Assembly (NCBI GenBank): GCA_025930495.1
Contig: JAICOU010000003.1
Location: 1-47,672 of the forward strand
Length of the DNA stretch: 47,672 nt
Direction: 5' to 3'
Origin: Nitrososphaeraceae archaeon
GTDB taxonomy: Archaea > Thermoproteota > Nitrososphaeria > Nitrososphaerales > Nitrosopumilaceae
Within the stretch, counting starts at the first letter, position 1. Each line of letters opens with the position of its first letter. The translations under genes and the position numbers were made by a program. This document shows positions 23,034-24,104 of this stretch, piece after piece. A model generated the notes under the pieces. It made no database searches and had not been told where the DNA came from. It was given only the letters and a program-made list of their open reading frames with translations.

Positions 23034-23114
23034 ATCACATCTCTCAATTTGCCAATAAAAAATCTTTGTGTAGTTTACAAAAGATTTTATGGACAAATTA
23101 CCCAATTTTGTTGG

Positions 23115-23205
23115 GTTCCAGTGGTGTAGACCGGTCAAGCATACTGCCCTTTCAAGGCAGTGATCCCGGGTTCAAAATCTAACGATGAAAATCCCGGCTG
23201 GAGCA
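23115..23205 (+). tRNA. tRNA-Glu (UUC) with a 15-base intron in the T-loop
   Basis: Acceptor GTTCCAG/CTGGAGC, anticodon stem CTGCC/GGCAG with loop CTTTCAA (anticodon TTC), T-stem CCGGG (23166-23170) and CCCGG (23193-23197), discriminator A (23205) followed by an encoded CCA (23206-23208). The T-loop is 15 bases too long. Removing 23177-23191 restores the standard TTCAAAT loop. The insert forms a textbook bulge-helix-bulge with its exons (see intron entry). Confidence 0.95.
23177..23191 (+). other. tRNA intron (noncanonical position, T-loop)
   Basis: TTCA (23171-23174) pairs with TGAA (23186-23189) to give the 4-bp central helix. Three-base bulges AAA (23175-23177) and AAT (23190-23192) flank it; the outer helix is the T-stem, and the inner one is TC/GA closed by a TAAC loop. 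Cutting after the second base of each bulge, as the archaeal tRNA endonuclease does, releases exactly 15 bases and leaves TTCAAA joined to TCCCGG. Confidence 0.88.
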
Positions 23206-23252
23206 CCAAGATTTAATTACTAATGAGAAAGTTTTTTGAATAGGCCTATATC

Positions 23253-24104
23253 TTGGACAGGAAAAATATCGAGATTAATCCTTTACTTGAAACATATGGT
23301 AAGTATATCGATCAAATTAATCAGGCATTAGATAGAGAATTATCATTATATTCAGAATCAGAGTTCATTGAACCACTAAAATATTCCTTAGAGGGTGGGA
23401 AACGAATTAGACCAATTATCTTAGTTTTGGCTGCAGATAGCGTAGGAAAAATTGACGATAATACATTAGCAGCATCATGTGCTGTGGAATTTTTACATAT
23501 GGAATCTATCATACATGACGACATTATAGATAACGAAACAATGCGAAGACAAAAAGAACCATTTCATATAAAATATGGATACAACACAAGTGTACTAACA
23601 GGAGATTTTGTTTTGGGATTAATTCTTGCGATTTCTTCTAGATTAGACAATGCAAGAATAACAAAGGATTTGGCAACAACAGCAATGTTGATGAGTGAAG
23701 GAGAAATGATAGAAAGTAGATTAGAAACCAGTGAAGATGTTACTTTTGATGATTATCTCAAAGTAATTGAATACAAAACTGCTACTGCATTTGAAGTGGC
23801 TGCAAGAATAGGTGCAATTATTGCAAATGGCAATGAAGAAGAAATAGAGGCACTAACAGAATATGGAAAAAATATAGGAATTGCATATCAAATAAGAGAT
23901 GATTTGTTTGACTGGAAGAATGAAGATAAATTATTTAATTTATTGATCAAGAAAAGTTCTGATCCAAGAGATGTTTTCAATAAAATGGAAGAACTTTTAA
24001 AAAAATATTCTGACAAGGCTAGAGCAAGTTTAAGAAAAATCTCAGATAATGATGCAAAAATGAATTTAGATAATCTTATAAAATTTACAACGTTTAAGGC
24101 ATAA
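23253..24104 (+). CDS. idsA: Short-chain isoprenyl diphosphate synthase (GGPP synthase-like)
   Basis: A trans-prenyltransferase that condenses IPP with allylic diphosphates, supplying the C20 or longer chains of archaeal ether lipids. The 283 residues show GGKRIRP (48-54), the first Asp-rich motif DDIID (89-93) and the second IRDDLFD (214-220, Asp216/217/220). The protein is about 30-40 residues shorter than typical GGPP synthases, mainly near the C-terminus, where a basic catalytic tail is normally found. TTG 23253 is the likely start, as no ATG precedes the conserved helix. It follows tRNA-Glu by 45 bases and its 3' end overlaps nuoN by 11 bases. Confidence 0.9.
   Translation: MDRKNIEINPLLETYGKYIDQINQALDRELSLYSESEFIEPLKYSLEGGKRIRPIILVLAADSVGKIDDNTLAASCAVEFLHMESIIHDDIIDNETMRRQKEPFHIKYGYNTSVLTGDFVLGLILAISSRLDNARITKDLATTAMLMSEGEMIESRLETSEDVTFDDYLKVIEYKTATAFEVAARIGAIIANGNEEEIEALTEYGKNIGIAYQIRDDLFDWKNEDKLFNLLIKKSSDPRDVFNKMEELLKKYSDKARASLRKISDNDAKMNLDNLIKFTTFKA

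Follow-up and report, generated by a model that had tools for sequence, protein, structure and literature searches.

The stretch of DNA analysed here (the window, 47,672 nt in full) derives from a Nitrosarchaeum-like archaeon of the family Nitrosopumilaceae, and at positions 23115-23208 of its forward strand it carries a gene for tRNA-Glu(UUC) in which the T-loop is 22 nt long instead of 7. The acceptor stem (GTTCCAG/CTGGAGC) forms seven pairs, one of them G-U, the D arm is present, the anticodon loop CTTTCAA (anticodon UUC) closes a stem of 5 bp, and the T-stem (CCGGG/CCCGG) encloses the unspliced T-loop TTCAAAATCTAACGATGAAAAT. The genomic CCA that follows the discriminator is not retained by all relatives. 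The features of the locus are as follows:

23083..23089, forward strand: GATTTTA, a likely archaeal TATA box 32 nt 5' of the gene; the motif is kept upstream in relatives.
23115..23176, forward strand: 5' exon of tRNA-Glu(UUC), running from the acceptor through the D and anticodon arms to the 5' strand of the T-stem and bases 54-59 of the T-loop; it matches the intron-free orthologue L032 exactly.
23171..23174, forward strand: TTCA, the exon side of the central helix (4 bp).
23175..23177, forward strand: 5' bulge AAA, with the predicted cut after 23176.
23177..23191, forward strand: 15-nt intron ATCTAACGATGAAAA at position 59/60; the exact intron-free form occurs in 45 of 250 genomes of the family.
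23178..23185, forward strand: inner hairpin TC(TAAC)GA, in which TC/GA becomes CC/GG or GC/GC in some relatives.
23186..23189, forward strand: TGAA, the intron side of the central helix; TGGA where the exon has TCCA.
23190..23192, forward strand: 3' bulge AAT, with the predicted cut after 23191.
23192..23208, forward strand: 3' exon, comprising base 60, the T-stem 3' strand, the acceptor 3' strand, the discriminator A (23205) and the genomic CCA (23206-23208).

The putative promoter element is a conserved part of the locus: GATTTTA lies 32-36 nt upstream (within at most 55 nt) in 163 of 176 loci, whereas control stretches of the same length, taken 300-1300 nt further upstream, contain it in 29 of 820 cases. 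A match to the Rfam family SpF36_sRNA at 23044-23092 scored 23.7 bits against a cut-off of 48 and was taken as a chance match.

The central helix TTCA/TGAA, four base pairs between two bulges of three nucleotides, constitutes a strict bulge-helix-bulge motif, and cuts between the second and third bases of each bulge would release 23177-23191 (15 nt) and leave the T-loop TTCAAAT. When spliced in this way, the gene is identical at 79 of 79 positions to a natural intron-free orthologue (L032, from genome G028 of the Nitrosopumilus group). An earlier sequence-only reading had proposed a tRNA-Glu(UUC) with 15 extra T-loop bases, a perfect bulge-helix-bulge and an excision that restores TTCAAAT, and the coordinates, the anatomy and the comparison with this orthologue agree with it on each point. 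In a simulation of random 15-nt inserts with the base composition of the window, four Watson-Crick pairs arose in 0.64% of draws, and the four central pairs together with two inner pairs in 0.05%. The minimum-energy fold of the lone pre-tRNA retains the T-stem, along with an inner hairpin of 3 bp, and does not include the 4-bp central helix; the motif therefore rests on its conservation in relatives and not on folding energy.

This conservation was assessed across UUC-type loci, comprising 140 with an insert, 64 parsed as intron-free, eight re-read as intron-free (genes with D-loop inserts or a different acceptor, kept out of the insert count), and two unparsed (L146 and L161); the insert of L134, which has no mature loop, was left out. 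Because the loci come from overlapping sources, their counts are not counts of independent genomes, and distinct inserts were counted once. The 55 distinct inserts are 14-28 nt long, with 15 nt in 24 and 14-16 nt in 41 of them, and all four Watson-Crick pairs are retained in 51 of the 55, on which ground chance pairing was set aside. The remaining four are all of the distinct Nitrosocaldus-like inserts (family f2), in which one to three pairs are lost or weakened to G-U and the inner hairpin differs, so the strict motif is not universal. The second central pair is T-A in 49 inserts, C-G in five and T-G in one, the helix having changed in a compensatory manner from TTCA/TGAA to TCCA/TGGA, and the first inner pair is T-A, C-G or G-C in 54 of the 55. 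In the window sequence alone, a run of A permits four excision points; excision after T-loop base 6 (position 59/60) is the only one compatible with all 55 distinct inserts.

The residue at position 55 of tRNA is near-universally T/pseudouridine. In six tRNA-Glu(UUC) genes (L035, L054, L171, L179, L186 and L195) this position is C (TCCAAAT); the five of these with an insert have the matching TGGA in the intron, and the intron-free L054 retains C55.

Could the 15 nucleotides instead be retained, giving a mature tRNA with an enlarged T-arm? Splicing is inferred here, and the energy minimum, which leaves the loop as a hairpin, is compatible with retention. However, the length of the insert and the sequence of its hairpin loop vary while the pairs of the bulge-helix-bulge covary, the 45 intron-free genomes of the family lack precisely the stretch between the predicted cut points, and genes for the splicing enzymes are present. 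Taken together, these observations make retention extremely unlikely.

The genome encodes two PF01974 proteins, which correspond to the alpha and beta subunits of the splicing endonuclease. Catalytic residues were read by eye from alignments to 2cv8, 3p1z and 1a79: the alpha protein (178 aa) keeps the catalytic Tyr/His/Lys, and the aligned His is absent from the beta protein (187 aa). By a hand count in the 3p1z alignment, a lysine at alpha position 35 aligns with K44 of Aeropyrum pernix, a loop lysine tied to broad specificity (PMC6379350). From these sequence features the enzyme is predicted to be of the broad-specificity (alpha-beta)2 type, and thaumarchaeal splicing enzymes are described as alpha2-beta2 (PMC4090602). 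The proposal that a T-loop intron needs a broad-specificity endonuclease is thus borne out in that a splicing endonuclease is required and one of this type is encoded, although a strict motif does not by itself demand broad specificity. The ligase RtcB is encoded by one gene (E 2.1e-179).

The window gene escapes common tRNA searches. ARAGORN makes no call on it, even with introns allowed, and its score with the Rfam tRNA model, 17.7 bits, falls short of the cut-off of 29; once the intron is removed, ARAGORN recognises the sequence as tRNA-Glu(ttc). Among six relatives, ARAGORN called Glu in all three intron-free loci and in one of three intron-bearing loci, and this single call (L028) is a 76-nt gene that differs from the spliced form. 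The expectation that such a gene is easily missed by scanning therefore holds for ARAGORN and Rfam on the window gene; it is weakened by the intron-bearing relative that ARAGORN did call, and by tRNAscan-SE 2.0, which is described as including, in its default archaeal mode, a bulge-helix-bulge model for which thaumarchaeal introns served as training data (PMC8450103).

The Rfam cut-off is reached by 35 tRNA genes of the organism's genome, tRNA-Glu(CUC) among them, and the window gene brings the total to 36. ARAGORN finds introns of 40, 50, 17 and 14 nt in four of these tRNAs, and two more have apparent inserts by eye. L206 is, by eye, a tRNA-Val(CAC) with an insert in the variable region, and L222 is a tRNA uncalled by ARAGORN, probably Arg, with inserts at more than one place. 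Some expected tRNAs, e.g., Trp, are absent from this set of 36, perhaps because introns or gaps in the assembly conceal them.

A decayed or silent gene copy with a chance insertion, the functional tRNA being supplied by another gene, would also go uncalled by ARAGORN and by Rfam at its cut-off. However, a second tRNA-Glu(UUC), which the sequence-only reading had named as a possible refutation, was sought and not found in this genome: the other Glu match is the intron-free Glu(CUC), and a pattern for the T-loop element matches only the window gene. Because the genome is a draft of 120 contigs (99.18% completeness), a slight chance of an unseen second copy remains. Together with the exact identity of the exons to those of the intron-free orthologue, and the conservation of the insert, its pairing (across genera) and the upstream box, the negative search for another copy makes a silent gene extremely improbable. 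GAA accounts for 336 of 403 Glu codons in 13 long open reading frames of the window, and the anticodon CUC does not read GAA. Since the only GAA-reading gene found escapes ARAGORN and stays below the Rfam cut-off, draft genomes can seem to be without an essential tRNA.

We are therefore highly confident that the locus encodes a functional, apparently single-copy tRNA-Glu(UUC) whose 15-nt bulge-helix-bulge intron at T-loop position 59/60 is spliced, a reading drawn from sequence comparison. In the proposed mechanism, the pre-tRNA would be transcribed, the alpha-beta splicing endonuclease would cut two bases into each 3-nt bulge, and an RtcB-type ligase would join the exons. The normal T-loop UUCAAAU could then form, and the product would be the one GAA-reading tRNA found in this genome.

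The intron is widespread in the family. A DNA query with the gene matched 55 of 61 genomes (the organism's own and 60 relatives), and of the 20 genera of the family in this survey, 15 have the insert in the sequences read, four are represented by a genome whose copy is intron-free, and in g14 only Glu(CUC) was seen. Across 250 genomes of the Nitrosopumilaceae, 191 fit an exact pattern with room for 0-30 extra bases and 45 fit the intron-free form, which leaves, by subtraction, 146 with an insert; among the 131 of good quality, 121 matched (30 intron-free, 91 with an insert). The 59 genomes that match neither pattern include 31 of genus g19 (0.7-1.2 Mb), in which the gene is diverged; a looser pattern matches 23 of these 31, and the insert is absent in all 23. 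When 400 genomes were drawn from the class, the exact pattern found inserts of 8-30 nt in 139, of which 134 belong to the same family and five to family f2, including G330, whose insert is the same as that in the Nitrosocaldus record L166.

Several other arrangements were seen in relatives. In families f3 and f8 of the same order, the tRNA-Glu(UUC) genes of L065, L069, L078 and L080 have an intact T-loop and a D-loop insert between GGTGTAG and TCCGGTCAAGCAT, which by its sequence is a putative second noncanonical intron site in this tRNA. L055 (G038, of another family) is a tRNA-Glu(CUC) with a 14-nt insert at 59/60, and none of the 12 Glu(CUC) genes examined from the window's own family has an insert. 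In one draft genome (L029, G014:C79), the sequence past the T-stem resumes at the counterpart of about window position 23342, so that the 3' acceptor strand is missing, probably through misassembly or deletion. A 2.2-Mb draft (G203) has two intron-free tRNA-Glu(UUC) loci, L271 and L272, with the same two neighbours, and probably represents two strains binned together.

Changes of intron state were followed in genus g12 (Nitrosopumilus), for which 57 of 95 genomes were taken, largely on account of their completeness; 25 of the 57 are intron-free and 32 have an insert of 15 nt. The comparison also covered 10 loci from other genera. The neighborhood is stable, intron or not: a polyprenyl-synthetase gene starts 42-77 nt downstream of the tRNA in 67 of 67 loci, and a TENA-like gene lies upstream in 64 of 67. 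All 32 Nitrosopumilus inserts are 15 nt long and 31 fit the pattern ATCnnnnGATGAAA(A/G), the exception being L267. On a tree built from two neighboring genes rather than from whole genomes, in which 32 of 64 inner branches are starred and several long branches flagged, the intron state must change five times in Nitrosopumilus (4-5 in bootstrap, at least three forced by starred branches), as compared with about 20 changes when the intron labels are shuffled.

The number of changes on the tree cannot tell gain from loss, and this count, along with the different inner hairpin of the Nitrosocaldus-like inserts, would be consistent with an intron gained repeatedly at 59/60 rather than inherited once and lost several times. 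However, the insert is present in three-quarters of the genera surveyed (15 of 20), and its uniformity within Nitrosopumilus makes about five losses simpler than as many matching gains; repeated gain is accordingly considered unlikely. Exact intron loss is the simplest reading of the changes in Nitrosopumilus, because most other genera carry the intron. As part of the overall explanation, in which we place high confidence, it would be an old resident intron of the family, lost now and then by exact removal.

A proposal by Randau and Soell, described in PMC3218864, holds that such introns persist by breaking up the integrase target at the 3' half of tRNA genes, and an intron at 59/60 does split the T-arm. 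At this locus, though, no integration beside the tRNA was found in the 25 intron-free or the 42 intron-bearing loci, and since the downstream gene stays 42-77 nt away in all 25 intron-free cases, none is seen to have followed intron loss. Protection from integration is thus quite unlikely as the reason for persistence here.

Several parts of this arrangement have precedents. Position 59/60 is listed among the sites of archaeal tRNA introns (PMC4090602), and 107 thaumarchaeal noncanonical introns are counted with tRNAscan-SE 2.0 (PMC8450103), in line with the earlier statement that introns beyond 37/38 are known. The 59/60 introns of the former source share the insertion point, motif and enzyme class of the window intron, which differs in being a strictly paired element of 15 nt, in an isoacceptor and lineage that the available text of that review does not name. 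The latter describes introns of the same clade and kind, the count being given, in the available text, without a list per tRNA. The permuted tRNA genes of Thermofilum pendens join at 59/60 (PMC3218864) and so share the T-loop junction position, whereas the window gene has normal gene order and a true intron. Among multi-arm tRNA introns, Cyanidioschyzon merolae also has a T-arm intron (PMC9602550), differing in being eukaryotic with three introns in one gene, and T-arm introns are mentioned for tRNA genes of Caldiarchaeum (PMC3293823). Nor is the length unusual, as had been suggested, given reported archaeal tRNA introns of 11-175 nt (PMC2738675) and the predominance of 14-16 nt among the inserts compared here. 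Because earlier work describes introns at 59/60, introns of similarly small size and noncanonical introns in thaumarchaea, the window intron adds to a known class; it is real, well supported and ordinary in kind, and its function is inferred from sequence.

The tRNA-Glu(UUC) 59/60 intron of the Nitrosopumilaceae was not found named in the open-access literature searched. One intron-bearing genome (G118, locus L228) is presumably, though not certainly, N. maritimus SCM1; in that case, tRNA databases very probably list the intron already.

A more speculative possibility is that the T-loop intron gates the maturation of the only GAA-reading tRNA found, such that T-loop modification, 3'-end trimming and charging would await splicing and the activity of the endonuclease would set a limit on the decoding of GAA. 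On this view, the exact losses that recur in Nitrosopumilus would represent repeated release from such control, probably with an RNA-derived copy of the spliced tRNA serving as the donor in gene conversion. We regard this scenario as very improbable. The locus nonetheless offers a natural series, in which one gene, within a neighborhood that stays constant across the Nitrosopumilus group and close relatives, is found with inserts of varied length and with exact losses, and questions on the loss of tRNA introns are therefore testable in these ammonia oxidizers.
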